Positions 8,074 through 36,581 of a stretch of 53,957 nucleotides of DNA are shown here, piece by piece. Under the pieces are notes generated by a model. That model ran no database searches. It was not told the origin of the DNA and worked only from the letters and a program-made list of their open reading frames with translations. Position 1 is the stretch's first letter, and each line of letters begins with the position of its first letter. The position numbers and the translations under genes were made by a program. Source of the stretch: a virus; IMG/VR virus record IMGVR_UViG_3300028388_005701, positions 1-53,957 of that record. The stretch is one strand, 5' to 3'.

Positions 8074-8466
8074 ATGAATTGGAAGATTTTAATGCTGCTG
8101 GTGGTATCGGTGGCAGCATGTTCAATAGAAAAAGTACCTACATTAGAATGCCCTGAATTAAGAAAAGCATTGGATGATCTACCAGAAAAAACTATAGTCG
8201 ATAAAGGTGATAATACAAGGGGTGCTATGAGAAGACAGATAGATAGTTATCATTCGAATTATAGACCATACACATTCGGCAAATCGGTAAAGCAGTATTA
8301 TACTGAAAGATATGAAGAATGGATAAAAGATACCAGCTGTAGTTGTGATGATGTTAGAAGGAAAGTGTTGTCGCAATTATTAAAAACAGACGTTAAGTAT
8401 TTAAGGACCAGAGACACCATCTGGAATCCCAAAACACCAGCAAAATATTGGAAAAAGAATGAATGA
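8074..8466 (+). CDS. small lipoprotein
   Basis: 130 residues. The signal peptide MNWKILMLLVVSVAAC ends in a VAAC lipobox. The mature part is charged, with CPELRK, a CSC pair in the middle and a basic end (YWKKNE). An isolated plus-strand gene flanked by minus-strand genes. Its 3' end overlaps the convergent, interrupted tag-bearing gene by 74 bases. Envelope location is inferred from the lipobox; function unknown. Confidence 0.65.
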   Translation: MNWKILMLLVVSVAACSIEKVPTLECPELRKALDDLPEKTIVDKGDNTRGAMRRQIDSYHSNYRPYTFGKSVKQYYTERYEEWIKDTSCSCDDVRRKVLSQLLKTDVKYLRTRDTIWNPKTPAKYWKKNE

Positions 8467-8734
8467 AATATGTTACAGCAAGATCTTGTAACATTTTAAC
8501 AGTCTTGGTGGCTTCCTGTTTGGACATCATACAATAATCATCAATTCCAGCATCTGATACATCACCATAAAACGCCGCAGCCGATATCCATTTAGGTTGG
8601 TCAGTAAAATCTTCAAAATAAGAGTTGTATATGGTATACACGTAAACGGTATAGTACTCTCTGGCTAACCCCTGAGCTTCATCAATTGCTCATGGAGACT
8701 CATTTACACTTCCAAATTTTGGTAATCTTTTCAT
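8393..8734 (-). pseudogene. tag-bearing putative internal head protein with an in-frame TGA
   Basis: ATG 8734 opens the family tag MKRLPKFGSVNESP, then a TGA at 8690-8692. The same frame continues without a break as AIDEAQGLAREYYTVYVYTI, including a second E/A site (IDEA) placed as in the sister gene at 13713-14369 (VDEA). A single TGG-to-TGA change explains it. The frame runs past its probable original end into the antisense of the lipoprotein gene. The leader (CAATAATAATG) matches those of intact family members. Read as a pseudogene; low-level readthrough cannot be excluded. Confidence 0.75.
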
Positions 8735-8796
8735 TATTATTGATTTTGTGAACACAATAGTGTACCCACCAGCGTTAATGATACTAACTACGTGGT

Positions 8797-9186
8797 TTAC
8801 TTTTCATAAATATTCTGGGCGACCATCACTCCGGATGATTCTGGGTCGACATAAACCTCAACCTTATATTTATCAGATTCTACTTCGAATTCAGTATATT
8901 CGTCAATATTTGGTTCACCATCACAATAAAACATCACTGAGCCAGCAAACGAACTATAACTAATTTCAGCAGAATTAACGGTAACGCCAAGCTTGCTGGC
9001 CAATTTATCCAGGTTTCTGATGAATACACTGGATTTAACCGCATCGACTAATCTAGTGATATGCAAAGCCGTAGAATAGCTATCCTCAGCTCTATCATCC
9101 TCGAATCCTATATTACGGACCCAGGATGATTCATTGATTCGTTGAGAGGATTCGTTTATTTCGTTAAATTTTGGTAATCTTTTCAT
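8797..9186 (-). CDS. tag-bearing putative internal head protein
   Basis: The start is set at ATG 9186, where the family tag MKRLPKFNEINESSQRINES begins. It has two INES sites in tandem, matching the T4 prohead-protease consensus (I/L)xE before S/A/G. The 129-residue body is acidic and alpha/beta (SAEISYSSFAGSVMFYCDG, YKVEVYVDPESSG). Packaging into the head with removal of the tag is inferred from the T4 internal proteins. No enzymatic motif seen. Confidence 0.75.
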   Translation of the reverse strand: MKRLPKFNEINESSQRINESSWVRNIGFEDDRAEDSYSTALHITRLVDAVKSSVFIRNLDKLASKLGVTVNSAEISYSSFAGSVMFYCDGEPNIDEYTEFEVESDKYKVEVYVDPESSGVMVAQNIYEK

Positions 9187-9263
9187 TATTGTTGATTTTG
9201 TAAATGTATTAAAAAATGATAATTTTTTAGTAAGAGCGCATAAACTGGGACCCAACGGGTATA

Positions 9264-9659
9264 TTAATAGCCACTATATCTGATCCTCATATTATCGCCA
9301 GGTAGAGCATTTGATCTGATAAAGTCAGCAGCCTTGCCAGCCAACCAGTCGAATTCTGAAGCGGTAACAAACATGTTATACTTTGTCAGTATTTTATCGA
9401 TTTTTGCTACTAGATGATAAGTTCCGCGACCAGTGGCATCTCTTCTGTTGCGATTAATTTCAACGTAACGCCTGTAAGATTTTTTAAAATCGCTTTCCAA
9501 ATCATACCACAGTTCATCATAGGTATAATTATGTAAAGGACCAGTGGCTAATTCATTATCATCAGATGACCTAACACTGGTCAATTGGTCATAAAAATAT
9601 TGGCTATGCTTTAGGGGCTGTCCAGCCCTATAGTTTTCGAATAACGGTAATCTTTTCAT
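9264..9659 (-). CDS. tag-bearing putative internal head protein (variant tag)
   Basis: 131 residues beginning MKRLPLFENYRAGQPLKHSQ. It keeps the MKRLP-x-F head, but the (I/L)xE site is degenerate (FENY), so cleavage is less certain. The body is basic in the middle (FKKSYRRYVEINRNRRDATG) and ends RIRYSGY. Its ATG overlaps the TGA of the upstream Nudix gene by four bases. Packaging inferred from tag and neighbourhood only. Confidence 0.65.
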   Translation of the reverse strand: MKRLPLFENYRAGQPLKHSQYFYDQLTSVRSSDDNELATGPLHNYTYDELWYDLESDFKKSYRRYVEINRNRRDATGRGTYHLVAKIDKILTKYNMFVTASEFDWLAGKAADFIRSNALPGDNMRIRYSGY

Positions 9660-10165
9660 GATTTTGTTAATGATCTAATTTGTGATTTGGAATTTTTGAT
9701 GAGATAATCTAAACCGAAATGTTTGTTATCCAATTTCAATAACTCATCGTATGTAATCCACTTATAGTCCTCCGATTCCCAGTTGAGTACTGGCACAAAT
9801 TCATCTTGGACTACACCAGCAAAATTGTGATATTCAAAGGTACCATCTGGGGATTTGTAGACTGCGAGTGGTAGCACTTGCAGCAAATCCCTGGGGTTTT
9901 GTTGCGTTTCTTCTTCAAATTCTCTGGCTGCAGCGGTTTTTGGTAGGGTTTCATGATCATCGATCTTCCCACCAATAGTGCCCCAGGTTCCAGGTTCGTT
10001 AACATACGAAGAACGAAGGATGACCATAATTCGACCAGTAGATTTGGCTATTGGTAGTATACCAGCGCCACGATTACCCCAAAAACTACCACCTTTAGTG
10101 TTGGTATAGATGGTGTAATCATCTGACTCGCTAAGATACTGTTGAAAAGATTTGATGTTGTCCAT
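9656..10165 (-). CDS. Nudix hydrolase with possible capsid-targeting N-terminus
   Basis: The start is placed at ATG 10165, giving MDNIKSFQQYLSESDD; LSES is a potential prohead-protease site. The Nudix box is clear: GGKIDDHE then REFEEETQ, with one extra residue in the central spacer compared with the standard GX5EX7REUXEEXGU. Nudix enzymes split nucleoside diphosphates linked to another group (dNTPs, ADP-ribose, NAD, capped RNA); the substrate cannot be told from sequence. The gene sits inside the tag array and shares a looser tag, so a packaged, injected hydrolase is an attractive inference. The window has a second, tagless Nudix gene. Confidence 0.8.
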   Translation of the reverse strand: MDNIKSFQQYLSESDDYTIYTNTKGGSFWGNRGAGILPIAKSTGRIMVILRSSYVNEPGTWGTIGGKIDDHETLPKTAAAREFEEETQQNPRDLLQVLPLAVYKSPDGTFEYHNFAGVVQDEFVPVLNWESEDYKWITYDELLKLDNKHFGLDYLIKNSKSQIRSLTKS

Positions 10166-10217
10166 TCTGCTTTTTTTATTTTGGTGGCGTGATCTAGGTA
10201 GATAACGGCATCCATCA

Positions 10218-10676
10218 TTAATAGATAGCGGACTGGATATCAAAATTCAGAATGGTACCTGGACCTCCTATGTTGGTTGGCGATACAATATAAGGCACAT
10301 CCATACCCTGTATTTTAATAACGCCAGAGTCCTCGACGCTGACATCGGCAAATTTCACCTCTGCGGTAATATAAAATACACCAGGATCGTAATCGTTGTG
10401 TACACCAAATGAAGCGTCCTCAATAGCTGGTTTGCCAATACTTACCCAATATCGATTCATCCACATTGACAACTTTTTTGAAGACATTATATCCTTGGCA
10501 CGTTTCATGTGCTTAGCAACATATCTGATCTCAGATGCGGCGTGCTCACCAGCTATTTCGAACCAATCCCATCCCTTAGGATCAGCGTCAGACATATCAA
10601 CCTTTATATTGGTCAACTCTGGGTGCTTATCAACAGCTTCGTTGATCATCTGATTAAACTTTGGTAATCTTTTCAT
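10218..10676 (-). CDS. tag-bearing putative internal head protein
   Basis: 152 residues starting MKRLPKFNQMINEAVDKHPE; the processing site would be INE before A. The body has a helical stretch (AASEIRYVAKHMKRAKDIMS) and a strand-rich C-terminus (FYITAEVKFADVSVEDSGVI). No catalytic motif. Packaged-protein role inferred from the tag. Confidence 0.75.
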   Translation of the reverse strand: MKRLPKFNQMINEAVDKHPELTNIKVDMSDADPKGWDWFEIAGEHAASEIRYVAKHMKRAKDIMSSKKLSMWMNRYWVSIGKPAIEDASFGVHNDYDPGVFYITAEVKFADVSVEDSGVIKIQGMDVPYIVSPTNIGGPGTILNFDIQSAIY

Positions 10677-10736
10677 TGTTTATTCTTTTGACGAAAATTT
10701 CAATTTATATATCTTTATACCCAAGGCGTATCAGTA

Positions 10737-11054
10737 TTAATTTTGAATCGGGTTTTGTACTTGTACTGGCACTTCAATAACTAATTCTTCTTCAATGCGC
10801 ACGCCATCCCATTCTGACAGTGGAGCAAAACGATTTGCAGCAAATGATGGCTCAAAGGTGCCCATACCCGATGGGTGTTTTATTGGTTCGTTGGTGATCT
10901 CATTTAACCACACTGCTAGCCGCCCATCGGATAGTCTGAAACAACTCCTAATGGTGTACAATTTATCTTTCACTGGTAGGTTCTGGAAGAATGGAAGAGA
11001 ATTTGGATCAAATGTAGCATTGGTACATATCACCTCTTGATTTTTATGTAACAT
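10737..11054 (-). CDS. small phage SH3-like protein
   Basis: 105 residues without the tag. The pattern YTIRSCFRLSDGRLAVWLNE, then NEPI...EPSFAANRFAPL, belongs to a small family I recall from many phages, with a beta-barrel-like fold and no firm function. An acidic hydrophobic tail follows. It sits inside the tag array, perhaps as a passenger. Confidence 0.6.
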   Translation of the reverse strand: MLHKNQEVICTNATFDPNSLPFFQNLPVKDKLYTIRSCFRLSDGRLAVWLNEITNEPIKHPSGMGTFEPSFAANRFAPLSEWDGVRIEEELVIEVPVQVQNPIQN

Positions 11055-11090
11055 TTTTATTTATTATAATAGTTCAACAAAAACTGGTTT

Positions 11091-11573
11091 TTATTTTATC
11101 ACAACATCAGATGTAGTCATTATATTAAAGAATGCTGCAGCATCTCTATTGACAACCCTCCGGACTTTGAGATTCACACCAAGCTTACCCATAAGTTTGT
11201 TGAAATCATGGTAGGTATACCCCCAAAAGTACTTTGAGTCCTTTTTATCTTGGTCATAGAAACGTACCAATACTCTAAATGATCCGTTTTCAAATTGTAC
11301 CGTCAAATCCTCATAGTGCGGGTGAAAAAAATTGATGTGTCCATGGCCATTATACGTATACTCAGTGGTGACACCACCATAAGTTGATTTCCTGTGTTTT
11401 ATGGCCGGATCTTTGCTAGTAAAGCCCAGGGCATATAGATCATCAATATACAACTGACGCCATGCATCCCCTGGAGTTCTAGGGTAGTATTTCCCCCTAA
11501 CAGATTCATACCCATTACTGGCATAATCAATGTCCTGTTTACTGTATTGTTCAAAAAGCTTTATTGGTTGCAT
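11091..11573 (-). CDS. putative internal head protein with loose tag
   Basis: 160 residues starting MQPIKLFEQYSKQDIDYASN. The head resembles the looser tags of the Nudix and the 367-residue genes (IK-x-F-x-QY) more than MKKLPKF. No clear (I/L)xE site is seen, so processing is doubtful. The body is rich in aromatic residues (YFWGYTYHDFNKLMGKLGV). No family recognised. Confidence 0.6.
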   Translation of the reverse strand: MQPIKLFEQYSKQDIDYASNGYESVRGKYYPRTPGDAWRQLYIDDLYALGFTSKDPAIKHRKSTYGGVTTEYTYNGHGHINFFHPHYEDLTVQFENGSFRVLVRFYDQDKKDSKYFWGYTYHDFNKLMGKLGVNLKVRRVVNRDAAAFFNIMTTSDVVIK

Positions 11574-11581
11574 AATGTCTT

Positions 11582-11629
11582 TTATATTAATAATGCCATT
11601 ATATCTTTGGATTTTGGTAATCCTTTCAT
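11582..11629 (-). pseudogene. vestigial capsid-targeting tag
   Basis: A 15-codon frame, MKGLPKSKDIMALLI, preceded by the same leader type as its neighbours (CAATATTTAAAAATTAATAATAATG is cognate with other array leaders; key part AATAATAATG). It looks like the head of a tag-bearing gene whose body was deleted. The short length alone would be chance-level, but start motif plus leader make a remnant likely. Confidence 0.5.
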
Positions 11630-11634
11630 TATTA

Positions 11635-12738
11635 TTAATTTTTAAATATTGGAAATTTTTCAGGATGTTTAACCTTGGCTAGTTCACCTTTATGATTAAG
11701 GTAACCCTCCAGGGTGCCACCACCATTTTTCTTAATATCTTTCCATATTAGATGAACCCATTTCATAACTGTTGGGTATCTAGAGGCCCACTGTTTAATG
11801 TTATGGAATTCATTTGATACAAAGGTACCGATCTCTTGTTTACGATAATGACTATCAGGATAAGTGGCCCAGTCAATAATCCTGGCCCAGATATTAGTGC
11901 CATAGGTACCCGCCATAGGTACAATTTCAGATGTGAAGTTGCTCTTTATTAGTTTATCAACAGTGGTGTCGTATTTTTTGGATAATTTAGTCAGCTGTCT
12001 ATCTCTCTGTAACAACCCCAACGCATTTTTGGTATTGGCGTCGTCCATAACGGCATAGAGAGCTATGATACCAAATAAACCCCTGACAAATGCATCTTCA
12101 GGCTCATTAGCATGCTGAAGATACTTCTGGAACCACTCGGCATTATACTGATTCTCGACACTAGCACCTTTATAATGCCTGTGGTTATAATAAGATTCAT
12201 TATCATACGGATAAAAATAAATACCTAACTTAGTAGCTAATGCCCAACATTCGTTGAATATCTCAAAATACCGATCATCAAGCTTGCCAACATAAACATG
12301 GATCTCTTTGATATATCTAGATATGTTCTTGATTATGGGTTTGTCCAAAAATAGACGTTCTTCATGTTCATCATATCTGGTGATATTATCTATCTTTGAT
12401 TTTTTAGGATCTTTGTTGACATTCCAATATTCAACCGGAGAAGATGGGCCTAAATTGGATAGCGCATCACCATCAAAGACAATGGTAACCTTACCACCAG
12501 ATTCGGCCAGACTACGACCATAACCGATTTTGGCATTTCCGGTAGTAGAGAAAGACACGAAATAGGGCTTACCTTTATTAAGCTTATCATCAGACTTGGT
12601 ACCGAAGGCGATAGATGCCCTCAAGGAATTGGTACGCAGGATTTGCACCAGATTGGTGAGCTGGGTAAAATGAAAAGTTGTACGAGAAAGAGACTCGTAC
12701 AACCTTTGATATTGATTAAAAGATTTGATATTGCGCAT
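11635..12738 (-). CDS. large putative packaged protein, possibly ADP-ribosyltransferase-like
   Basis: The start is set at ATG 12738: MRNIKSFNQYQRLYESLSRT, where LYE before S is a good prohead-protease site. The 367-residue protein then has FHFTQLTNLVQILRTNSLRA, YFVSFSTTG and IGYGRSLAE. This resembles the opening of proteins with an ADP-ribosyltransferase-type fold (H-F/T, 'n-L..IL', strand with FxS). The match is partial and no catalytic Glu was assigned. T4 packages and injects the ADP-ribosyltransferase Alt, so the analogy is attractive but inferential. The C-terminal half is helical and unrecognised. Confidence 0.65.
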   Translation of the reverse strand: MRNIKSFNQYQRLYESLSRTTFHFTQLTNLVQILRTNSLRASIAFGTKSDDKLNKGKPYFVSFSTTGNAKIGYGRSLAESGGKVTIVFDGDALSNLGPSSPVEYWNVNKDPKKSKIDNITRYDEHEERLFLDKPIIKNISRYIKEIHVYVGKLDDRYFEIFNECWALATKLGIYFYPYDNESYYNHRHYKGASVENQYNAEWFQKYLQHANEPEDAFVRGLFGIIALYAVMDDANTKNALGLLQRDRQLTKLSKKYDTTVDKLIKSNFTSEIVPMAGTYGTNIWARIIDWATYPDSHYRKQEIGTFVSNEFHNIKQWASRYPTVMKWVHLIWKDIKKNGGGTLEGYLNHKGELAKVKHPEKFPIFKN

Positions 12739-12743
12739 TATTA

Positions 12744-13184
12744 CTACTGTGTTGCTATAAACAAAGCATAGGGGGTATTGGGTTGAATTGGTAACCACCC
12801 CAAATCAGATGAATTTCTGATTGCAAACTGAAAATCACTAGACCAGTTTTCTTCATCAACCATAGATGGATCTACATCTTCAATAGGCACACAACAAATG
12901 ATTTGGGTACCCATATCACCACCATCAATCTCACCATGAATATACCATTTGATATTGGTTAAATTCACATCCAGCCCCAATTCCTTTTTGATTTCGTTTT
13001 TTAAATCTGCTATTGAAGACGGACTTTCTACAGCCTCTTTTTGCCCTATAAAAAATGCCGCAGCGTCGATAATATTATCAGCAGCCCAATTCGATGTGAA
13101 GCTGACTTTTGGCCGTATGTCTACTGACTCATTAGTATTTTGGTAAGATTCGTTTACTTCTCCAAATTTTGGTAATTTTTTCAT
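12744..13184 (-). CDS. tag-bearing putative internal head protein
   Basis: 146 residues, starting MKKLPKFGEVNESYQNTNES with VNE before S as the first site. The body has a helix-rich part (AADNIIDAAAFFIGQKEAV) and an acidic, Trp-containing C-terminus (EENWSSDFQFAIRN). Six bases separate its stop from the downstream gene start. No function visible beyond the tag. Confidence 0.75.
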   Translation of the reverse strand: MKKLPKFGEVNESYQNTNESVDIRPKVSFTSNWAADNIIDAAAFFIGQKEAVESPSSIADLKNEIKKELGLDVNLTNIKWYIHGEIDGGDMGTQIICCVPIEDVDPSMVDEENWSSDFQFAIRNSSDLGWLPIQPNTPYALFIATQ

Positions 13185-13252
13185 TATTTGTTTTTTTATT
13201 ACTATAAGAGTTTAATTTATATATTTACAGATTATCATGCTGTGGTCCAGGT

Positions 13253-13654
13253 CTACCACAGATCCTCCATTAGATCGAAATTTATGCTTAGATCTAGATC
13301 GGTTCCAATGATGTTTATATAACCCGCATCATCGCCATAAGTATACATATACTTACTCTTGGGTAATTTCCTGGCTTCTAATTTCGCGGCCCCCACATTT
13401 GTTACTGAACCTTTATGGCCTTTGTAAATACCAATAATATCTTCTGGCTGTAGCGGATAGGTATCCATAACTATATCTAACAATTCTTCATAAATCAGGA
13501 TATCATGCAACTCCTCTACATACTTCGATGGATCACCTTTGCATGCGATAATAGCCAAATACTGATAAATGCTGAACTCCTGTTTACCAGCTAATACTGC
13601 TGATTCACTAATCGACTGTTTGTTTAGATCTTGATATTTCGGTAATTTTTTCAT
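13253..13654 (-). CDS. tag-bearing putative internal head protein
   Basis: 133 residues beginning MKKLPKYQDLNKQSISESAV, with ISE before S as the likely site. Body: helical (YQYLAIIACKGDPSKYVEEL), then strands ending DLSINFDLMEDLW. No domain recognised. Confidence 0.72.
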   Translation of the reverse strand: MKKLPKYQDLNKQSISESAVLAGKQEFSIYQYLAIIACKGDPSKYVEELHDILIYEELLDIVMDTYPLQPEDIIGIYKGHKGSVTNVGAAKLEARKLPKSKYMYTYGDDAGYINIIGTDLDLSINFDLMEDLW

Positions 13655-13712
13655 TGTAATATAATTTTATGTGGTTAATTATGGATATAATAAAAAATAC
13701 CCGTGTTTAATT

Positions 13713-14369
13713 CTATTTAAGGAAAAAACTAAATTCTATATAGGCAGTGCCATTTTTATTGTGGTTGGCCATTATCTTAACCTTAATCGGCCCACCATTG
13801 ATATTACGATTGTCTAGCTGGTTACTAGCCAAATTGACTGTCAGCCTATTTGATACAAAATGGGAGACCAATGAATCAACCACTGATTCCATATCACTAG
13901 CGGCAACGGTAGCGCTATTGACAATCACCATATTACTATCTTTACTGAAATATTTAGAATCCCAATGCCCCAATTCTGGTAACAACCTACGCAATCTAAG
14001 ATTTTCCACACCGCTTACTAACAATTTGTAGTTGTCCATGAACACATCGGCCTTATCATCTTTACGATACAGGTATTTATTATAGTTAACAAGGTTATCA
14101 TTTAATTCCATAAGCTTGTTACGCAGCATCCCCTTTTTATAAAAATCGAGATTGTATAGCTTGATGGCTTTGTCGGATATGTTATCACCCAGAGTGGTGG
14201 CGAACGCAGCGGCTAGTTTATCTAATGCTTTTTTGTTCAATTCTCGTATGCCTTGATTTATGGCGTTGACGATTTTGGCCACAATTTTTGTCTCTATATC
14301 ATCCAGATATCCGGCCTCATCAACTCTTTGGGATTCGTTTATTTCATCGAATTTTGGTAGCTTTTTCAC
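13713..14369 (-). CDS. tag-bearing putative internal head protein, GTG start
   Basis: 218 residues. The GTG at 14369 is chosen because it opens the tag MKKLPKFDEINESQRVDEAG, with INE/S and VDE/A sites. A long helical part (KALDKLAAAFATTLGDN, NKLMELNDNLVNYNKYLYRK) is followed by an alpha/beta part (NMVIVNSATVAASD, KVKIMANHNKNGTAYIEF). The same helix-then-strand order appears in the tagged genes at 18212-18994 and 19909-20577, suggesting one subfamily. Function unknown. Confidence 0.75.
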   Translation of the reverse strand: MKKLPKFDEINESQRVDEAGYLDDIETKIVAKIVNAINQGIRELNKKALDKLAAAFATTLGDNISDKAIKLYNLDFYKKGMLRNKLMELNDNLVNYNKYLYRKDDKADVFMDNYKLLVSGVENLRLRRLLPELGHWDSKYFSKDSNMVIVNSATVAASDMESVVDSLVSHFVSNRLTVNLASNQLDNRNINGGPIKVKIMANHNKNGTAYIEFSFFLK

Positions 14370-14396
14370 TATTATTGATTTTGAATCTAGAAATTA

Positions 14397-14840
14397 TTAT
14401 GATGCAGCCCAAGTAGGATATACAGTACCCCAACCATCCTCGAACAATTCAACAGTGATACTGATTTTGTATCTACCATTGTAAGTGGTTGTATAAACTT
14501 CTTTAAGCTCTCCAGCTCCGTGGTGAATATAGAGTGTCGGGAATATAATATCTCTCAGCTGCACATTTCTACCGTCCATATTGACACCGGAACTTGGTGC
14601 TTCATGGGTATCGTACCAAAGGTCAGCATCGTATCCTCCAGTGATTATCGATTTAAGCCACGATCTGAATTCTGGTGATGCAAATACTTCCTGATAGGCA
14701 TTATGTAAGCTTATCATCCATACAAGATCCATAGTAGCATTGTCATCTACGTGTTGTTCGCGGCCATAGACTTTATACACATTACTTTCGTTAATGGATT
14801 GTTCGTTGATCGTATCGTTGAACTTTGGTAACTTTTTCAT
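14397..14840 (-). CDS. tag-bearing putative internal head protein
   Basis: 147 residues with the tag MKKLPKFNDTINEQSINES (two candidate sites). The central helix AYQEVFASPEFRSWLKS is close to AYLDYFNTPDFDKWLTE of the tagged protein at 17306-17797, so these two are likely paralogues. The C-terminus is strand-rich (RYKISITVELFEDGWGTV). A TATAAATA box lies about 36 bases upstream. Confidence 0.75.
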   Translation of the reverse strand: MKKLPKFNDTINEQSINESNVYKVYGREQHVDDNATMDLVWMISLHNAYQEVFASPEFRSWLKSIITGGYDADLWYDTHEAPSSGVNMDGRNVQLRDIIFPTLYIHHGAGELKEVYTTTYNGRYKISITVELFEDGWGTVYPTWAAS

Positions 14841-14876
14841 TATTATTGATTTTTAAATATTGTATTGTAACCTATT

Positions 14877-14884
14877 TATTTATA
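14877..14884 (-). promoter_or_regulatory. TATAAATA box (T4-late-promoter-like)
   Basis: Exact minus-strand match to the T4 late -10 consensus, in the gap upstream of a tag-bearing gene. Internal head proteins are late in T4, which fits, but chance matches are expected in AT-rich DNA. Confidence 0.25.
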
Positions 14885-14886
14885 AG

Positions 14887-15222
14887 CTATGCCTCGAAAT
14901 GGTAGCAATGCAAGTCAAGTTCCGTATTAGTTTCGAGCTTGATAGGTTTCCACACTAAAGCATCACCGTGATAAACTTTGATGAGTTCAGCAACAGTACC
15001 TTCAATATCAGTGATATGCTCATGGGTGGCACCATCATACCTTTCTATGAAATAGACGGTCTCCTGTAATGATTCTTGAGGATCACAAAGCACCAAAATG
15101 GTGTATTTTCCGGTTTCTAGCCCATCACAGGATTTGCCCATCAACGGACCTATTTTATGTAACTTAGCGCAGCCTGGAGCAAGATATCTTGCTGTCTGGG
15201 TATTAATTTCGAGGGATTTCAT
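14887..15222 (-). CDS. hypothetical protein, 111 aa
   Basis: Starts MKSLEINTQTARYLAPGCAK. No tag and no signal peptide. Beta-rich with YTILVLCDP and TVYFIERYDG, and ending LDLHCYHFEA. Interrupts the array of tagged genes. Not recognised. Confidence 0.6.
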   Translation of the reverse strand: MKSLEINTQTARYLAPGCAKLHKIGPLMGKSCDGLETGKYTILVLCDPQESLQETVYFIERYDGATHEHITDIEGTVAELIKVYHGDALVWKPIKLETNTELDLHCYHFEA

Positions 15223-15261
15223 GTTGTTTTTTATTTTTGACCAAAAAATACTGGTTTGCCT

Positions 15262-15531
15262 TTATTCACACCTCTTCATTTTAAATGTTACCGCATCGGT
15301 TATTTTAGGAGTAACAGCTCTGCCATATTCCAGGCATCTTTTGGTTGTAACATTATCCACTGAATCGGTACGTACCACATTATCATCGGAACCCAAAAAA
15401 TCAATAACACACTGGTCACATTGTGCACCATTTGATGTATAGATTGGGTAGATACTTTCGGTGTTATAGCAAGATAAGACCGTGAACATCAGGAACAGTA
15501 AAATTATTAGATTTTTCATTTCATTTTTCAT
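15262..15531 (-). CDS. small cysteine-rich lipoprotein
   Basis: 89 residues from 15531; an inner ATG at 15519 is equally possible. The signal peptide IILLFLMFTVLSC ends in a VLSC lipobox. The mature domain has CDQC, a later KRC and a terminal KRC, like the small Cys-rich proteins at 151-784. The cysteines probably form disulfides outside the cytoplasm. Function unknown. Confidence 0.65.
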   Translation of the reverse strand: MKNEMKNLIILLFLMFTVLSCYNTESIYPIYTSNGAQCDQCVIDFLGSDDNVVRTDSVDNVTTKRCLEYGRAVTPKITDAVTFKMKRCE

Positions 15532-15572
15532 TTGGCTTATAAAATTTGGGGTACATATCAGCCATATCGTTA

Positions 15573-16337
15573 TCAGTTGGCTATACCAGCCATATTATAG
15601 GTATTACAGGATGTAGAATAACTACCCCATTGATCCCATTCATGTTCTGACCATAAATCGTAACCTGTACCATTGGGTTTAACCACCAGCGTAGCATCCA
15701 TATAGACCTGGTAGAAAAAATTGATGGCGTTAGCGTTGCTACCCTTGTTACTTATGATATCAGCCAGAGTTGCCTGCCATACGGTATTACCACCATCCAA
15801 TGGGTTAGCCACGGTAAATGTAGTGGTGTTGATATTGGTATGGGTAGCCACATCGAAATTGGTAGTAGCTGTGATACTGCCTGGAGAACTGCCAGAATTG
15901 CTATTTATCTCAGCATAGTAGACATTGCCATAGCTATCGGTACCAGAACAGGCAGAATAACCAACAGTCAGTGTGGTGCGCACACTGAATTCAACATCAA
16001 AATTAGTAGCAGGTCCACTGTAATTATTGAAATCGACTTTGATAGTGCCATCGCCATTGATATGGCACCAGGTGAATCTACCAAAGGAGCTAGAATAATC
16101 ACCGATACCATCAGTGTTAGTACGATCACAAAAACCTTTGGCATCAATACCAGCGTTTGGGTTGGCCCTGTATTTGCTCATATGGTCGTCGAATTCGACT
16201 TGGATTTCATCGATAGTCATTCCAGGGAATTTAACCTCTAGCAATGAGATATCAGGCCCTTTATCGGCATCTTCTGGGTGTAAAAAATTGCAACTACCTA
16301 GCAGTGCAATAGCGAAAACGAATAGTAAATTTCTCAT
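15573..16337 (-). CDS. large lipoprotein, beta-rich
   Basis: ATG 16337 is preferred over an upstream TTG. The signal peptide MRNLLFVFAIALLGSC ends in LGSC (lipobox), followed by NFLHPED. The mature part of about 235 residues is Gly/Ser/Thr/Asn-rich with strand patterns and a few Cys (KGFCDR, FTWCH, YSACSG, STSCN). The order charged helix, Cys, F-x-WC, TIKVD is shared with the lipoprotein at 3568-4383. Likely exposed on the host envelope after early expression; an infection-exclusion role is only a guess. Confidence 0.7.
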   Translation of the reverse strand: MRNLLFVFAIALLGSCNFLHPEDADKGPDISLLEVKFPGMTIDEIQVEFDDHMSKYRANPNAGIDAKGFCDRTNTDGIGDYSSSFGRFTWCHINGDGTIKVDFNNYSGPATNFDVEFSVRTTLTVGYSACSGTDSYGNVYYAEINSNSGSSPGSITATTNFDVATHTNINTTTFTVANPLDGGNTVWQATLADIISNKGSNANAINFFYQVYMDATLVVKPNGTGYDLWSEHEWDQWGSYSTSCNTYNMAGIAN

Positions 16338-16370
16338 AGTCAATTGTTGTTTTGATTTAATTGTTGATAT

Positions 16371-16529
16371 TCAATCAGTAAATGCTACCAATTCTGGTTC
16401 TAGTTTTGTCACCTCTTCTTTGATCACCCGATTCCAATAATTGGAAGTTAAATTATCCAACTTATCCTCACAATTCGGACATTCCACTGGTTGCGGATCT
16501 CCTGGTTTTATAGTTATTTTATTGCTCAT
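16371..16529 (-). CDS. small protein with a CPNC motif, 52 aa
   Basis: ATG 16529 overlaps the TGA of the preceding gene as ATGA. The reading MSNKITIKPGDPQPVECPNC continues to VTKLEPELVAFTD. A single CxxC pair suggests metal binding by a dimer or a short ribbon. Real coding is supported by the coupling and by the sensible composition. Confidence 0.5.
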   Translation of the reverse strand: MSNKITIKPGDPQPVECPNCEDKLDNLTSNYWNRVIKEEVTKLEPELVAFTD

Positions 16530-16807
16530 CATTTATGGATTTTATCATATAGACCCTCAAAATCCTTAAGCTCAATCCAATCAGTAAGTTCGATACAATT
16601 GATCATAGCTGCTTGGCTATCATTGTACTTTTTTCGACTGCGACTACTGTCATTAAACCCAAGCCAGCCTAGCATAGTTTGAAGAGCATCTGCTCTATTA
16701 ACAATACCCAGTTGTTTTCTTACAACGTTGGTATACAGCTTGGATTCAGAGCCATCGTGATAACTAATAGTCAGTAACCACCCAGCTACTCTTGTTTCAT
16801 CTGCCAT
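16529..16807 (-). CDS. hypothetical protein, 92 aa
   Basis: The start is put at ATG 16807 (MADETRVAGWLLTISYHDGS), because the longer frame would begin inside the upstream gene. Soluble, ending DWIELKDFEGLYDKIHK. Coupled to the following 52-residue gene by an ATGA overlap. Family not recognised. Confidence 0.55.
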   Translation of the reverse strand: MADETRVAGWLLTISYHDGSESKLYTNVVRKQLGIVNRADALQTMLGWLGFNDSSRSRKKYNDSQAAMINCIELTDWIELKDFEGLYDKIHK

Positions 16808-16823
16808 TGTTTGTATTATTTGA

Positions 16824-17132
16824 TCACAGTACCCGCCCAGGAGTGCTGTGAATAGGTATAGAATCTTCAATAGTAACACCAAATACTACCACCGTCAACC
16901 CGTTATCATATTCATAGTAGGGTTTGCCATCACCGTGTTTGCCATCCCAATTCCAGTGTTCTTTTGGATCATGCATAAGGAATTCCGTTTTCGCATTACC
17001 CCATTTATTGTTGTATCCGGAGTAAGTTGATATGTACACATCTTTCTTATCACTTCTGGCCTTATCTATCACACCTATGATGGATTTATCAAGCATGTCA
17101 TAGACCTCTACTATTTTCTTCTTTATCCTCAT
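16824..17132 (-). CDS. hypothetical protein, 102 aa
   Basis: Starts MRIKKKIVEVYDMLDKSIIG. A soluble alpha/beta protein with a Trp/His-rich middle (KEHWNWDGKHGDGKPYYEY) and ending TPGRVL. No signal peptide or tag; no family recognised. Confidence 0.55.
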   Translation of the reverse strand: MRIKKKIVEVYDMLDKSIIGVIDKARSDKKDVYISTYSGYNNKWGNAKTEFLMHDPKEHWNWDGKHGDGKPYYEYDNGLTVVVFGVTIEDSIPIHSTPGRVL

Positions 17133-17241
17133 TTTACCTGATGTACAGTATCAATAATCAACAGTTTCCTATATACGTCTTAGTTTGGGCATGCAGTAAA
17201 AGTTTTTCTCACCCATCTGATGGGCATCAACCACTGGTATG

Positions 17242-17280
17242 AATTGTGCCATACAATTTTTTATTCTGCATGGCACAATT
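17242..17280. repeat. 11-bp perfect inverted repeat between genes
   Basis: AATTGTGCCAT (17242-17252) and ATGGCACAATT (17270-17280) around a 17-base loop, just past the stop of the tagged gene at 17306. It could end or protect the array transcript. There is no clear T-run after the stem on the minus strand, so a factor-independent terminator is uncertain. Confidence 0.5.
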
Positions 17281-17305
17281 AAGTAACAGGTTTCACCATC
17301 CAGGG

Positions 17306-17797
17306 TTAAAAGTAGGTTGCGGAAACATGCATGAGATTGCTATCCGGATAGGCAATATAGCCGACGCCAAGCTTGAAACCATTAACATCTTTTGGTGTCA
17401 TATCAGACCAGTCGACCTCTTCATCTCCTATATCGCCCTCGAATTTGAACGATATTTCAGGAATAGTACCATCCACTTTCTCGATAGTGATACCAGCTAT
17501 TTTTGTGGGAGCATCTGCACCATAAAATTCAAGCCTACCACTATTTCTATCTAGTGTAATACCCAGTTTTCTTTCTCTCTCAGTCAACCACTTATCAAAG
17601 TCTGGAGTGTTGAAATAATCAAGATATGCCTGGACTACGGCAAAGGACAATACAGTATTTCTAGTCCACGCATTGTCGGCATCCCACATACTAATACCAT
17701 ATTTGGCAATAACCGGATGCTTAATATTTTCCATCACTGGTTGCGGTTCTTGGCTACTACTTTCGTTCACCTCTCCGAATTTTGGTAATTTTTTCAT
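17306..17797 (-). CDS. tag-bearing putative internal head protein
   Basis: 163 residues; tag MKKLPKFGEVNESSSQEPQP with VNE/S. The body contains AYLDYFNTPDFDKWLTE, similar to the tagged protein at 14397-14840, and a strand-rich acidic part (PEISFKFEGDIGDEEVDW). Probably a paralogue of that protein. Packaging inferred. Confidence 0.75.
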   Translation of the reverse strand: MKKLPKFGEVNESSSQEPQPVMENIKHPVIAKYGISMWDADNAWTRNTVLSFAVVQAYLDYFNTPDFDKWLTERERKLGITLDRNSGRLEFYGADAPTKIAGITIEKVDGTIPEISFKFEGDIGDEEVDWSDMTPKDVNGFKLGVGYIAYPDSNLMHVSATYF

Positions 17798-17831
17798 TTT
17801 GATAGTAAATTTTTATTGTTGTGTTCATTTT

Positions 17832-18215
17832 TCATTTTGATAAGAAATCATCTCTGTACATAATCAACAGATCACCAGTAACAGTGCCAGTAGATCCTAC
17901 GTACTTCGGTAATCTGTCAGATACATCATAGGATTCGTCACTTTTATGGAGAGTGGCTTTACCGTAACCACCGAAGCCTACTTTATAGATCAATCTATCA
18001 CCATTTGAAAAATCAATGGTTAGGTCGGTTTTATCTTCACTGATTATACCAGTAGTATTTACCACTGTAACAGGCTCCAATACAACTTTGAATCCTCTTA
18101 TCTCAGCGATTTCTTCCTTTTCATTTGACAAATCACCGATAACATCCACTCGCCAGGATTCGTTTACTGATTCAGCAGACTCGTTGATATCTTGAAATTT
18201 TGGCAATCTTTTCAT
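17832..18215 (-). CDS. tag-bearing putative internal head protein (SNGD subfamily)
   Basis: 127 residues; tag MKRLPKFQDINESAESVNES. It belongs to a clear three-member subfamily with 19045-19443 and 19471-19872: (V/I)WRxDV near the tag, TDLTIDFSNGD in the middle, and GTVTGDLLIMYRD at the end. The beta-rich body is unrecognised. ATG 18215 overlaps the upstream gene end by four bases. Confidence 0.78.
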   Translation of the reverse strand: MKRLPKFQDINESAESVNESWRVDVIGDLSNEKEEIAEIRGFKVVLEPVTVVNTTGIISEDKTDLTIDFSNGDRLIYKVGFGGYGKATLHKSDESYDVSDRLPKYVGSTGTVTGDLLIMYRDDFLSK

Positions 18216-18994
18216 TTTTTTATGTTTTTATAAACATTTATTCTAACACGACCATCAAATTTGTAACCAGGACCACTATAATCACTAAAAGACAGTTGCA
18301 TAGTACCAGCGTTACCATTAACCACTGTCCGTTCAACTTTGGCTTCGTCTATTGTGGTAATGATGGTCAGTTTGATTCTGTTTTGTTTACAGAATTTTGT
18401 GGCGTATGATTTCATTTCTTCAAAAATACGGTCATAATCACCATTGAATATAATTATATTTTCTAATTCGTAATTGTTGTCCGTTTTGATCAACTGAGCA
18501 CCAAATTCAGCACCAAGTAAATATTCAGCATCGTATTGGCTGAGGATGTGATCAATAAATCCGCCCAACCCAATGTATTCCAGCCACTCCATGAAATTAT
18601 TAACATCATCCACAAAAGCTTTACCACCATCCATAGCCGCAGACACTGGTAGTAGATCAGCTCTGAGTTTTGACACCCTATCAATCATTTTTCTAGCGAC
18701 GACTCTCCATCTGTGTGCTATTTGTTTATCGGAATAAGAAGATTTTTCTAAATAATCACTAATATTCCCATCCATATGTACTTTAGTGCGGCCTATAGAT
18801 TTTTTCACATCAGCCAAACCAAATTTATTGCCTATGGTAGGTTTTAAATTCATGCCAATATCAATTAGTTGTTCGATATTGTCCATATTACGGAATATTT
18901 CAGATATGATTTGGTCAAGATTCGCACCTGATGATTCGTTTATTGATTGTGAAGATTCATTAATTGATTCCCAGAATTTAGGTAACTTTTTCAT
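18212..18994 (-). CDS. tag-bearing putative internal head protein, 260 aa
   Basis: Tag MKKLPKFWESINESSQSINE with two INE/S sites. A long helical N-terminal part is followed by an alpha/beta segment (YELENIIIFNGDYDRIFEE) and a strand-rich end (YKFDGRVRINVYKN). This order matches the tagged proteins at 13713-14369 and 19909-20577. The largest protein with the strict tag. Function unknown. Confidence 0.76.
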   Translation of the reverse strand: MKKLPKFWESINESSQSINESSGANLDQIISEIFRNMDNIEQLIDIGMNLKPTIGNKFGLADVKKSIGRTKVHMDGNISDYLEKSSYSDKQIAHRWRVVARKMIDRVSKLRADLLPVSAAMDGGKAFVDDVNNFMEWLEYIGLGGFIDHILSQYDAEYLLGAEFGAQLIKTDNNYELENIIIFNGDYDRIFEEMKSYATKFCKQNRIKLTIITTIDEAKVERTVVNGNAGTMQLSFSDYSGPGYKFDGRVRINVYKNIKK

Positions 18995-19044
18995 TGCTTA
19001 TTATTATTTTTTTTTGATTACACAGTTTGAATCGACATATTTCT

Positions 19045-19443
19045 TTATTTGATCGAGTACTTCCGATAGGCAGCTAGTAGATCACCTATTAGCGTATCAT
19101 GATCACCTGTATGTGGTTCTACCCCTCGTATTACTCTACCGTTGATAGCGAATTCTATCTTAGGGTCCATTGTAGGAAGCTTCTCCGCACGATATTCGTA
19201 AAGTACGACATCACCATTAGTCATAGTGATCCTCAAATCTGTGCTGTCATATGTTATCTCTCCTTCTACACTCTTCACTCTAATTTCAGTAGTCATAGCA
19301 AAGTCCATCGCTGCGCGTTTCTCCTGAGAGGTACTAAACATTCCATCTACACTGGCACTCCAGTTAACGGATTCCTGTATGCTTGAGTATCTCTTATTAG
19401 TGGATTCATTAATTGATTCTCCGAATTTTGGTATTTTTTTCAT
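19045..19443 (-). CDS. tag-bearing putative internal head protein (SNGD subfamily)
   Basis: 132 residues; tag MKKIPKFGESINESTNKRYS, with a second candidate site IQES. It shares TDLRITMTNGD and DTLIGDLLAAYRKY with two neighbouring genes. Its leader AAAACTTTAACAAAAAATA is nearly repeated before 19909-20577, evidence for duplication of gene plus leader. Confidence 0.77.
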   Translation of the reverse strand: MKKIPKFGESINESTNKRYSSIQESVNWSASVDGMFSTSQEKRAAMDFAMTTEIRVKSVEGEITYDSTDLRITMTNGDVVLYEYRAEKLPTMDPKIEFAINGRVIRGVEPHTGDHDTLIGDLLAAYRKYSIK

Positions 19444-19470
19444 TACCTATTTTTTGTTAAAGTTTTATTG

Positions 19471-19872
19471 TTATTTATTAGTTTTGCCTAACATCATATC
19501 CCTATACATGATCAGTAGATCTCCAACCAGTGTACCAGTAGAACCAGAATAGTAGTTATTAAACTTGTTAAGTTTATTACCGATCTGTCTCCCTTCGATC
19601 TCCATTGACATAATACCGGTATCAGCAGCAAATCCGGCCATATAGGTTATTGTATCACCATTTGACATAATTATGGTAATATCAGTATTATCCTCATCTA
19701 TCAGACCAGTCACAGATTGTACAGTAATAGGCTCGTATATCACCTTGAAATCAGAGGCAAAATCTTTTTCACTTCTGGCATCAAAAGGCTCTAGTACATC
19801 AGCCCTCCAGACAGTCTCATTTATGGGTTTCGATGATTCGTTTATCTCTTTGAACTTTGGTAATCTTTTCAC
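19471..19872 (-). CDS. tag-bearing putative internal head protein (SNGD subfamily), GTG start
   Basis: 133 residues. The GTG at 19872 is chosen because it begins the tag MKRLPKFKEINESSKPINET. Closest to 17832-18215: VWRADV versus WRVDV, TDITIIMSNGD, and GTLVGDLLIMYRD. A recent duplicate. Packaging inferred from the tag; no enzymatic motif. Confidence 0.78.
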   Translation of the reverse strand: MKRLPKFKEINESSKPINETVWRADVLEPFDARSEKDFASDFKVIYEPITVQSVTGLIDEDNTDITIIMSNGDTITYMAGFAADTGIMSMEIEGRQIGNKLNKFNNYYSGSTGTLVGDLLIMYRDMMLGKTNK

Positions 19873-19908
19873 TGTTTATTTTTTTACACCTAGATAATAA
19901 AAAGTCTG

Positions 19909-20577
19909 CTAATAGTCAGTAACCTTTGGGTTGTTAGCCATAAAGCTCACTATATGAACACGCACGGAATGCGTATCATTTCTATATTCTGTATCACCTA
20001 TATACACACAAAGTTTACCGCTTCTTCTGGCATTTAATTCCTGGGGTTTTGAACGAGCTACCCAGCTATTATTATACACTACCACATCATTTCTACCGGA
20101 TAATCTGGATATCAGTTCATCTCCGGAGGCCATTAAATAGCCCTTAACAACAAAAAAATGATCACCGCCATTCTGGAGATCATACTGCAAACCTGGTGGT
20201 TTTGTGTCTATATCATCAAGAGCCGATTTTAAAAAACTATCTACTCTATTAAAATTGCTGACTATATCGACACTATCGACACTATGCTTTCTATTGTCAA
20301 ACCTGTAGTTATCAAGTTTAGTGGCCATGGACCGTAGTTTTTTTGATAGATTTTTGTTGTAGGCATTGGATTGCCTAACAGCTATGGCATACGACGCGCT
20401 TGATAACTTACCAGATAAACTTTTGAAATTAGGCTTGGGTGCTGGCGATGTATTAATCTTAGCGGCTGTACTTTCTAGATGATCGATAACACCAGAAATC
20501 GTATCGTGGGTACTGGTATTTGCCTCATTGATAGATTGAGATTCGTTTATTTCTTTGAATTTTGGTAATCTTTTCAT
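19909..20577 (-). CDS. tag-bearing putative internal head protein, 222 aa
   Basis: Tag MKRLPKFKEINESQSINEAN with INE/S and INE/A sites. The first half is helical and basic (YNKNLSKKLRSMATKLDNYR). The second half is alpha/beta (DVVVYNNSWVARSKPQEL, KLCVYIGDTEYRND) ending in a strand (VRVHIVSFMA). Its layout resembles two other large tagged proteins. First gene of the array in transcription order. Confidence 0.76.
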   Translation of the reverse strand: MKRLPKFKEINESQSINEANTSTHDTISGVIDHLESTAAKINTSPAPKPNFKSLSGKLSSASYAIAVRQSNAYNKNLSKKLRSMATKLDNYRFDNRKHSVDSVDIVSNFNRVDSFLKSALDDIDTKPPGLQYDLQNGGDHFFVVKGYLMASGDELISRLSGRNDVVVYNNSWVARSKPQELNARRSGKLCVYIGDTEYRNDTHSVRVHIVSFMANNPKVTDY

Positions 20578-20790: not shown

Positions 20791-20814
20791 TTGATATATT
20801 TAATTTATGTATTT

Positions 20815-22863
20815 CTAGGAACTGTGCCAGACATATTTAGCGTTGCCACAGTTGTATGTTTTCATGAATCCCAGCTCGTCCATTATTGTAGTCTCTGATC
20901 TGGTATCGGTTTTACTAATTACACCTTTCTTCACAAGATTCTTTTTAGAAAATTGCCTGCGATTGTACCTGAACCCAAACACATCGACATAGAAATAGCC
21001 TGGAACTGTATTATGGCTAAATTGCATACCCAGTTTATCATACACCGATCCGGTAAAGAAGTCAAGGAATGCGTAAGTATAAATCTCTTTGGGATCATAA
21101 TTACGCAAGAAATACTTAAACATCTTAGAGGCACCACCAACCACGGAAAAACCGATACTGGTAGCTAATCTCCCAATCTCCCAAAGAGATTCAGATTTAT
21201 TCCTAAGATTAAAGGTCATCACCGATCTAAGTTCATCTTCGTAGAATAGACCAAGATAGACAGATCCTACTAAGTGACCCTGGATATGATTTTTATCCAG
21301 GAAATCCTTGACATCCTTGAATTGTAGCACACGGAGATCAGTCTTACGAGCATAAATACGAGTACAATTCTGTAGGATAGCATTGGATATAATGGACTTA
21401 ACGATATCTTGACGATAAATCCAATCAGTCTCCCAAATCTGGATAAGACGGATACCTTTTGATAGAGCATGATTGTATTTTTCTTGGTGGTAATTACGAT
21501 GCTTTATTCTGGTGCTATGCCAGTATGAACCGTTGTACTCGATACCAAGCTTAAGCTCCGGAAGGTAAATATCAATCTCATAGGGGTTGATTGGTGATCT
21601 GGTATTGGTCACGACTTCACCATTATAGATAGATTCGACCCAGGCCGCTACATCTTTCTCTGCTTGGGATCTCATCTCACCGATTGGATTACAATGAGTG
21701 CAAAGTTCTATCCCATGTTTAATGACCCTATCCCTGGCGAACCCCGATGAAGTAGTGAATATTTCTCCACACTTCTTATGTAGGAAGGACACCTCTAACT
21801 TATTCTTGAAGGATACCACTTCATATGGCAGATTTGAATCTATAAACCTGTTATTCCAGATTCTAGATGCCTCAGTCTTAGATTTAGTTCTCAGATACGG
21901 ATCATTAAATGGATGCATACCGGAGTCTTGCATTTCTTTGTACAATTTTTGGAATCCAGCAGACTGCATGGGATGTTCTGTGCCCCATCTTTCCAGACTG
22001 GCTCTCTTGTATTCATTCTTAAAATTATCGGTTAGTACATACCATCTTTCGCCGTACTTCTCAAGATTGGCTTGTTCCAATTTCTCCCTAAGTGGACCGT
22101 GATTCCAGTTGTGCTCAACGCCGTACTTTTCGACCATGGTAGCCCTTTGTTTCTTGATAGCATCATTATCTTTTATGCCTTTAGAGATTTTATCGCGCAT
22201 CCATTCATCTTTACAATCGTTACATGGCTTATATGCATGGCCCACACCGTTGTAATTTCTGCCAAAATCAGCATCATTTTCACCACAATATTCGCATTTG
22301 GGTATGTCCTTTATACCATGCACAAGATGGTGAATACGGCGACTATTGGTACTGTCATCCGGCAAGAAGCTGGTGTATTTTTTAATAAAGGTGTCTAACT
22401 TCATATTCCTAACGGTTATACCAACTTTCTTAGTACCATAAACCTGTTTAAGAATATCAGTCAATTCCTTTTTGGTATAAGATACGTCTTTCTGCTCCTC
22501 TGGTAATTCATAGCCATCGCCGTACTGGGATTGTTTAGCCCTTAGTGCTCTGTAAGCTTTAGAGCACTCTTTGCTACAGGGCTTATAGCCATAAGTGGTA
22601 CCTTTGTGTTGATTTTTAATCACCACACCAATCTTGCCCCATTTGTTACTAACACCACCGCAGCTAGGGCATTTACCTGGATCAATATTATTTTCTATAA
22701 CATGCCAGCACCTTCTGTTAGTCTTAGCATCATTGGGTAGGAAATTAGTAAAAAACGTAAGACGCTCCAGCAATTCCTTACGTCTATTGACCATATTAGT
22801 CAGATTGGTAGGTGATTGCTCTTTGAGAGATATTAATGTTGATCTTAGTTCGTTATAATCCAT
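20815..22863 (-). CDS. putative Vsr-like (EDxHD-type) homing endonuclease
   Basis: 682 residues from ATG 22863. Two Cys4-type modules lie at about 65-100 (CPSC...CSKEC) and 190-217 (CEYC...CNDC), each after an SRR/NRR-xxH motif. Three short repeats follow (EKYGVEHNW, EKYGERW, ERWGTEHPM) of the kind used for DNA contact. A nuclease core sits at about 400-450: SQAEKDVAAW, YEIDIYLPELKLGIEYNGSY, WHS, then WETDW. The E/D, IEYNG and H fit the Vsr-like fold of the phage homing-endonuclease family described with fractured, split-intein genes. Free-standing, next to the capsid genes; it likely spreads itself by cutting related phages. The C-terminal 150 residues resemble a GNAT-like or repair domain but were not assigned. 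Confidence 0.75.
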   Translation of the reverse strand: MDYNELRSTLISLKEQSPTNLTNMVNRRKELLERLTFFTNFLPNDAKTNRRCWHVIENNIDPGKCPSCGGVSNKWGKIGVVIKNQHKGTTYGYKPCSKECSKAYRALRAKQSQYGDGYELPEEQKDVSYTKKELTDILKQVYGTKKVGITVRNMKLDTFIKKYTSFLPDDSTNSRRIHHLVHGIKDIPKCEYCGENDADFGRNYNGVGHAYKPCNDCKDEWMRDKISKGIKDNDAIKKQRATMVEKYGVEHNWNHGPLREKLEQANLEKYGERWYVLTDNFKNEYKRASLERWGTEHPMQSAGFQKLYKEMQDSGMHPFNDPYLRTKSKTEASRIWNNRFIDSNLPYEVVSFKNKLEVSFLHKKCGEIFTTSSGFARDRVIKHGIELCTHCNPIGEMRSQAEKDVAAWVESIYNGEVVTNTRSPINPYEIDIYLPELKLGIEYNGSYWHSTRIKHRNYHQEKYNHALSKGIRLIQIWETDWIYRQDIVKSIISNAILQNCTRIYARKTDLRVLQFKDVKDFLDKNHIQGHLVGSVYLGLFYEDELRSVMTFNLRNKSESLWEIGRLATSIGFSVVGGASKMFKYFLRNYDPKEIYTYAFLDFFTGSVYDKLGMQFSHNTVPGYFYVDVFGFRYNRRQFSKKNLVKKGVISKTDTRSETTIMDELGFMKTYNCGNAKYVWHSS

Positions 22864-26733: not shown

Positions 26734-26790
26734 CTTTATCGTGTTTGCACTTTCTTTATTTATTTGTAAGCTAAGAATTTAAATTTTATA

Positions 26791-26798
26791 TATTTATC
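26791..26798 (-). promoter_or_regulatory. GATAAATA box ahead of the head-gene operon
   Basis: One base off the T4 late consensus TATAAATA, about 58 bases upstream of the protease/scaffold start. The same 8-mer precedes the tail sheath gene (46585-46592) and the holin gene (49378-49385), all late-type functions. A late promoter is plausible but unproven. Confidence 0.35.
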
Positions 26799-27509: not shown

Positions 27510-27536
27510 TCAAACAAAAAAAACAATTTGAAAATC

Positions 27537-36568: not shown

Positions 36569-36581
36569 TTTATTTTATGTA

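Follow-up and report, generated by a model that had tools for sequence, protein, structure and literature searches.

The window analysed here is the whole 53,957-base stretch (G+C 38.6%) of the virus record IMGVR_UViG_3300028388_005701 (IMG/VR), from an uncultured, T4-related virus. Its minus strand carries, between 8,393 and 20,577, an array of small genes that open with nearly the same peptide, of the general form MK[KR][LI]PK[FY]..(.)[IV]NE[S/A] (Table 1). In six-frame translation the core of this tag, MK[KR][LI]PK[FY], occurs 13 times, each copy beginning at a minus-strand start codon between 8.7 and 20.6 kb, and it is found in none of 100 dinucleotide shuffles. The 13 copies belong to 12 intact genes and one interrupted gene (t01). 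An earlier, sequence-only reading of this DNA had described 13 intact genes with nearly identical opening residues, together with one interrupted gene and one vestige. The shared opening, the interruption and the vestige are all confirmed, and the count of 13 intact genes holds if the diverged member starting at 9,659 is included; strictly, only 12 carry the canonical tag. For t02, the start is placed at 9,186 and not at that of a longer TTG open reading frame reaching 9,255. Recoding of TGA as the cause of the stop in t01 is rejected: translation with table 11 leaves the other genes open, so t01 is put down to ordinary interruption or sequencing error.

The tag runs directly into a candidate protease site. 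In the 12 intact genes the first site is preceded by a leader of 12–13 residues, or in one case 17, and at least one [ILV]xE[SAT] site lies within the first 26 residues of every protein, in t04 and t08 only with V at P3. This agrees with the description of the tag as ending in (I/V/L)xE before S or A. Counted as [ILV]xE[SAGT], 19 sites fall within the 312 tag residues (the first 26 of each protein), as against 1 in the 1,650 residues of the 12 bodies. Tandem sites, spaced 5–11 residues apart, are present in eight of the 12 proteins, as in MKKLPKFWESINE/SSQSINE/S, where slashes mark candidate cuts; in t07 the first site is followed by Q. The two-site tag peptide MKRLPKFNEINESSQRINES has candidate cut points after both E residues. 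Neither the second site, which most tags have, nor the second tag class described below figured in the sequence-only reading. Residue 4 is L or I and residue 7 is F or Y in all 13 copies of this first tag class (class A). Across codons 2–7, synonymous differences between copies (pS) reach 0.59 and nonsynonymous differences (pN) 0.058; they rise to 0.67 and 0.11 once the NES codons are counted as well. From F7 to the I/V-N-E motif, the spacer differs in length among copies by one whole codon. Since synonymous positions are near saturation while pN stays so low, comparison of the copies indicates that selection acts on the tag peptide and not on its DNA.

The array adjoins genes for a gp23-type major capsid protein and a prohead protease fused to a scaffold-like part, both of which carry the same kind of site. 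The capsid protein has a predicted maturation site, ALNE/S, at residues 52–55 (cut 54/55), and the equivalent position reads IYE/S in the Flavobacterium phage MaF61 and INE/N in the Tenacibaculum phage PTm1. The linker of the protease-scaffold fusion has INE/A at residues 226–229. The sequence-only reading had named both sites, and both are present. Within the scaffold part the motif occurs in at least five places, with additional [IL]xE[SA] sites at IYE/S 411, LYE/S 454, INE/A 505 and INE/S 571. The PF03420 Peptidase_S77 match of the fusion scores 25.9 bits, slightly below the 27-bit cut-off, and a PDB sequence search with the protease returned nothing useful. The window also codes for a contractile tail sheath, a large terminase subunit and a T4-type clamp loader subunit, and no tRNA gene was found across its length. 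The closest capsid proteins are those of MaF61 (37.5%), PTm1 (30%), PAU (30%) and the Prevotella Lak phages; in IMG/VR a single contig reaches about 41% identity. Because these nearest capsid proteins belong to phages of Bacteroidota, the host is likely a member of that phylum.

Behind the tags, the protein bodies differ. The sole clear paralogues are the genes starting at 18,215, 19,443 and 19,872 (t09, t11 and t12; E 1e-24 to 3e-6, 44%–30% identity), and every other pair of bodies is at or near noise, which bears out the claim that the bodies are unrelated or weakly related. An AlphaFold model of the t12 family was discarded for its low confidence (pLDDT 48). In tblastn searches against phages, the bodies of t06, t10, t12 and t13 gave no match and the best match of t08, a Serratia phage at E 0.05, was judged to be chance, leaving none of the five bodies searched with a credible phage homologue. 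Apart from the Nudix hydrolase, no PHROG or Pfam family was found in the array cargo.

This arrangement resembles the internal proteins (IPs) of T4, whose IPIII leader alone suffices for packaging (PMC9026906). Mutagenesis of the T4 capsid targeting sequence assigns the main part in targeting to residues 4 and 7, and processing to residues 8 and 10, and the T4 protease follows the rule L/I-x-E (PMC9026906). In the T4 genome the leaders are MKTFKEFTSTTTPVSTITE/A, MKTYQEFIAE/A and MKTYQEFIAE/A (cut positions per PMC9026906), so that IPI, IPII and IPIII read MKTFKEF or MKTYQEF. IP1–3 are homologous in the leader only and each inhibits distinct GmrSD enzymes, and at least 10 different internal proteins are reported from T-even phages (PMC12373910). 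The array shares with IPI, IPII, IPIII and Alt a short leader (10–19 residues in capsid targeting sequences of the T4 type) with hydrophobic or aromatic residues at 4 and 7, an [IL]xE/[AS] site, unrelated bodies, a multi-copy family, and a phage that also encodes a gp21-type protease and a gp23-type capsid protein. It differs in number, T4 having three IPs and Alt against 12–13 clustered members and a second leader class here; in the tag, which has 12–13 residues, a spacer 2–3 residues longer and usually two tandem sites; and in the bodies, which are mostly acidic where the T4 IPs are basic and for which no homology to T4 IP bodies was found.

Scanning the whole genomes of relatives for common N-termini uncovers parallel sets. 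In Sphingomonas phage PAU (JQ362498), whose host is now reclassified as Sphingobacterium (PMC3738902), 19 proteins open with MK[TSG][LI]xx[LM][YF]E, and five of the 19 have a second site in the strict form LYE/.KLNE/. Members of the PAU set include gp152, annotated as the scaffold, and gp142 and gp154, the two that bear the annotation 'internal capsid protein', for which the PAU record gives no basis; most genes of the set cluster near the portal-protease-scaffold-capsid genes. N-terminal sequencing of the mature PAU capsid protein gives 520 of 585 residues (PMC5646251); cleavage following LME64 predicts 521, in agreement within one residue. PAU, a distantly related gp23 phage, thus parallels the window in its large one-leader set, its tandem sites and its clustering, and differs in having its own leader, MKT[LI]xxLYE, a scaffold encoded as a separate tagged gene, and no bodies found in common. 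Smaller, looser sets in their own styles are present in PTm1, pT24 and MA9V-1 (in the last, for example, MKNFFSFINE/A and MKTFFNFVNE/S). The motif search that the sequence-only reading had proposed finds the exact window tag in no other IMG/VR record, and the PAU tag in one contig only besides PAU. Exact tags are therefore nearly confined to their own phage, and the comparison indicates that they are phage-specific, as would be expected if each tag were matched to the scaffold of its own phage. The large expansion of internal-protein-type cargo proposed in that reading stands in number and is not unique, PAU having as many members. In phiKZ and SPN3US, inner-body and ejection proteins likewise comprise many head proteins that are cleaved at xxE by a gp21-type protease and ejected with the DNA, but several of their propeptides are long (>100 residues) where the common leader here has 12–13 residues.

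A second leader class (class B) follows the pattern M..IK.F, with I4 and F7 in MDNIKSF (Nudix hydrolase), MRNIKSF (a 367-residue protein), MEKIKTF and MQPIKLF. The 367-residue protein has an N-terminal domain whose AlphaFold model (pLDDT 83) finds DarT 7omw as the best Foldseek match (E 8.5e-5, probability 1.00, with a moderate TM of 0.46) and also matches the Tpt1 fold, and H.T, S and ExE(D/E)R motifs are invariant across 19 homologues; a PDB sequence search with the protein returned nothing useful. By modelled fold and motifs the domain belongs to the ADP-ribosyltransferase (ART) superfamily, with the corresponding activity predicted. Published surveys (PMC9503650) argue, independently of this analysis, that packaging in the head and injection are frequent among phage ARTs and Nudix enzymes.

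Homologues of the ART protein occur in Vibrio jumbo phages, Salicola phage SCTP-2, an uncultured 484-kb phage and 29 IMG/VR loci. The leaders of several are common to unrelated neighbours on the same contig: MIKLK.. on several L083 genes, MKI(Q/N)QL (L085, three genes), MSRA..ILE on several L103 genes and M(R/K)(A/S).EF on several L104 genes. For seven of 14 ART contigs, the best leader match within the contig is stronger than that in at least 92% of the size-matched samples of N-termini drawn from elsewhere (Fisher-combined P about 6e-5); MIKLK.. (five copies), MSRA..ILE, MRATEF and MKIQQLFE are clear examples. As in head-packaged ARTs and polyvalent proteins of the Alt, VIP2 and MuF type, the ART and Nudix proteins are predicted to be packaged and injected; those types are fusions, whereas delivery here would apparently run through a short cleavable leader that unrelated neighbours also carry. 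The protein at 35936–36568 is possibly a second packaged ART-like protein, judging from its leader and motif (Table 1). Tagged neighbour genes at L083 9318–9971, L085 9131–9610 and L081 1050–1918 encode HGT, HGS or HWT proteins resembling ART relatives, and by these motifs tagged sets may be rich in ARTs. In five IMG/VR contigs (L096, L097, L098, L101 and L105) the ART domain lies towards the C-terminal end of long multidomain proteins that have LxE/G-like junctions; such proteins are possible polyprotein substrates of the prohead protease.

Table 1. Tagged genes, head genes and related elements in the window, in order of position. Minus-strand genes start at the higher coordinate; t02–t13 are the intact genes with the canonical class-A tag; a slash marks a candidate cut.
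Positions	Strand	Feature	Leader or tag	Match
6066–6413	+	Orphan, class-B-like leader, outside the array and on the opposite strand	MEKIKTFESFIGE/R	
8393–8734	-	t01, interrupted; in-frame TGA at codon 15, frame then open to 8393	MKRLPKFGSVNESP	
8797–9186	-	t02, 129 aa	MKRLPKFNEINE/SSQRINE/S	
9264–9659	-	Diverged member; leader without [ILV]xE[SA] site	MKRLPLFENYRAG... (MKRLPLFENY)	
9656–10165	-	Nudix hydrolase, class-B leader	MDNIKSFQQYLSE/S	PF00293, E 3e-17
10218–10676	-	t03, 152 aa	MKRLPKFNQMINE/A	
11091–11573	-	Orphan, class-B-like leader, no clear cleavage site	MQPIKLFEQY	
11582–11629	-	Vestigial 16-codon tag	MKGLPKSKDIMALLI, then stop	
11635–12738	-	367-aa protein, class-B leader; N-terminal ART (DarT/Tpt1-like) fold, from model	MRNIKSFNQYQRLYE/S	
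12744–13184	-	t04, 146 aa	MKKLPKFGEVNE/S	
13253–13654	-	t05, 133 aa; first site degenerate, second intact	MKKLPKYQDLNKQSISE/S	
13713–14369	-	t06, 218 aa; GTG start, orphan body, pI 9.1	MKKLPKFDEINE/SQRVDE/A	
14397–14840	-	t07, 147 aa	MKKLPKFNDTINE/QSINE/S	
17306–17797	-	t08, 163 aa; orphan body	MKKLPKFGEVNE/S	
17832–18215	-	t09, 127 aa; t11/t12 family	MKRLPKFQDINE/SAESVNE/S	
18212–18994	-	t10, 260 aa; orphan body	MKKLPKFWESINE/SSQSINE/S	
19045–19443	-	t11, 132 aa; t09/t12 family	MKKIPKFGESINE/STNKRYSSIQE/S	
19471–19872	-	t12, 133 aa; GTG start, body homologous to t09 and t11	MKRLPKFKEINE/SSKPINE/T	
19909–20577	-	t13, 222 aa; two sites, pI 9.2	MKRLPKFKEINE/SQSINE/A	
23167–24888	-	gp23-type major capsid protein		PF07068, E 3e-32; phrog_138
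24925–26733	-	Prohead protease (S77/gp21-type) fused to coiled scaffold-like C-terminal part		phrog_207, E 5e-33
35936–36568	-	Possible further member; FHGT motif resembling other ART-like proteins	MRILLFE/SYNN...	
36572–36582, 26783–26793, 20802–20812, 13214–13224, 10702–10712	-	ATRYATAAAWT copies		

The identity of the tag, selection on its peptide, the placement of the sites, the adjoining gp23 and protease genes, the PAU parallel and the leaders shared within single phages by ART homologues and their neighbours argue for the capsid-targeting and prohead-protease interpretation that the sequence-only reading had put forward. The tag is very probably a phage-specific capsid targeting sequence of the T4 internal-protein type, feeding cargo that would be packaged, cleaved and ejected. 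Several observations weigh against this. The isoelectric points (pI) of the bodies are 4.1–5.4 in nine of 12, 6.0 in one and above 9 in two, so that the set does not consist of small basic mature proteins like the T4 IP family (pI 9.0–9.7). Depletion of cleavage sites in the bodies is weak here (1 against 5.2 expected, P 0.03) and absent from the PAU tagged bodies, and is for this reason not used as proof. Among the ART contigs, the other seven of 14, some with short flanks, have no within-contig leader match. The conserved E-[SGA] directly ahead of the ART domain is rejected as independent proof of cleavage, and the E alone cannot count as a cleavage site, because it also occurs where the ART domain is internal to a long protein, and where the next residue is R. 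Finally, the support is from sequence only.

It is rather unlikely that the tagged proteins are instead scaffold, core or inner-body structural parts that are degraded or retained and not ejected, in the manner of T4 gp67 and gp68 or PAU gp152. The annotated PAU scaffold does bear the same tag as the other tagged PAU proteins, and T4 IPIII also influences head assembly (PMC9026906). Against this, the bodies are nearly free of further cleavage sites while the scaffold region has several, they are mostly unrelated to one another, unlike a structural core, and the Nudix and ART enzymes of the second class make sense as delivered activities. Recent duplication or recombination of a DNA cassette (promoter, ribosome-binding site or translation start), with a peptide that has no sorting role, is already disfavoured and very improbable: the upstream 12–15 bases are alike within groups (AAATCAATAATA or AAAAAATAAACA before ATG) and three members are true paralogues, yet synonymous positions are near saturation, the spacer changes by whole codons, and conservation extends over a protease site that recurs in the phage's own capsid protein. 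Processing or localisation for another destination (host membrane, replication compartment or host protease) is scarcely credible, for although location is read here only from the protein sequences, the leader is hydrophilic with neither a hydrophobic core nor a lipobox, its cleavage motif is the one found in the capsid and scaffold proteins of this phage, and comparable leaders, which are specific to each phage, are borne by head proteins in PAU.

As a capsid targeting sequence, the segment M-K-[K/R]-[L/I]4-P-K-[F/Y]7 would bind the prohead core, that is, the scaffold part of the protease-scaffold fusion, and about a dozen or more different proteins would thereby become part of the prohead. 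Cutting after [I/V]-N-E, mostly at two close sites, the S77 (gp21-type) protease of the phage would then free the bodies from the core. Packaging and cleavage of the tagged proteins are highly likely on this evidence. The freed bodies would remain in the DNA-filled head and be ejected into the host with the genome, a step that is likely, if less firmly so. Once in the host, they would probably work early in infection, against its defences or towards its takeover. Such a role is moderately favoured for most members, by analogy with the blocking of GmrSD enzymes by T4 IP1–3. The second leader class (M..I4KxF7) probably brings the Nudix hydrolase and the DarT-like ART into the same head.

The principle is already known from T4 and related phages. 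What is new is the scale and compactness of the set, its tandem cleavage sites and its mostly acidic orphan cargo; the PAU tagged set is apparently undescribed in the literature searched. Also new is the evidence in the ART leaders, which suggests that effector domains common to unrelated large phages carry, in each of them, a private leader. These features can be extended into a tentative proposal, judged a little short of evenly balanced, that large gp23-type phages operate an open 'address label' system, in which every phage pairs a leader of its own with its scaffold and acquires unrelated effectors by fusing them to that leader. The array would then be an injected anti-defence arsenal of a dozen or more mostly acidic orphans, and the tandem site would give two-step or fail-safe release. 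If so, such arsenals could be read directly from genomes through the label. Assignment of T4's three internal proteins took decades. If the leader is by itself enough to mark a protein as packaged and injected, lists of candidate anti-defence or takeover proteins could be drawn up from the genomes of uncultured phages, with at least 12 on this contig that have no recognisable relatives and are probably directed at Bacteroidota hosts. The leader is in addition a candidate orthogonal packaging tag, and leader capture would explain how phages gain new cargo.

Upstream DNA offers one further lead. A search for the late promoter TATAAATA showed no enrichment (8 against 8.4 expected). A derived element, ATRYATAAAWT, has only five occurrences, all on the minus strand, against 1.8 expected (post hoc); they lie just upstream of the gene at 35936–36568, the protease-scaffold gene, the upstream gene of the array, t04 and t03. 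From this placement the element is a possible late promoter and, because it was found after the fact, is treated only as a lead. Between the capsid gene and the array lies a 693-residue homing/HNH endonuclease (20815–22896; phrog_3339, E 2e-104). Putative lipoproteins are encoded at 15573–16343, 3568–4383 and 27528–28130, with Bacteroidota-like lipoboxes such as LLGSCN, FFSCNS and IFSCNS.

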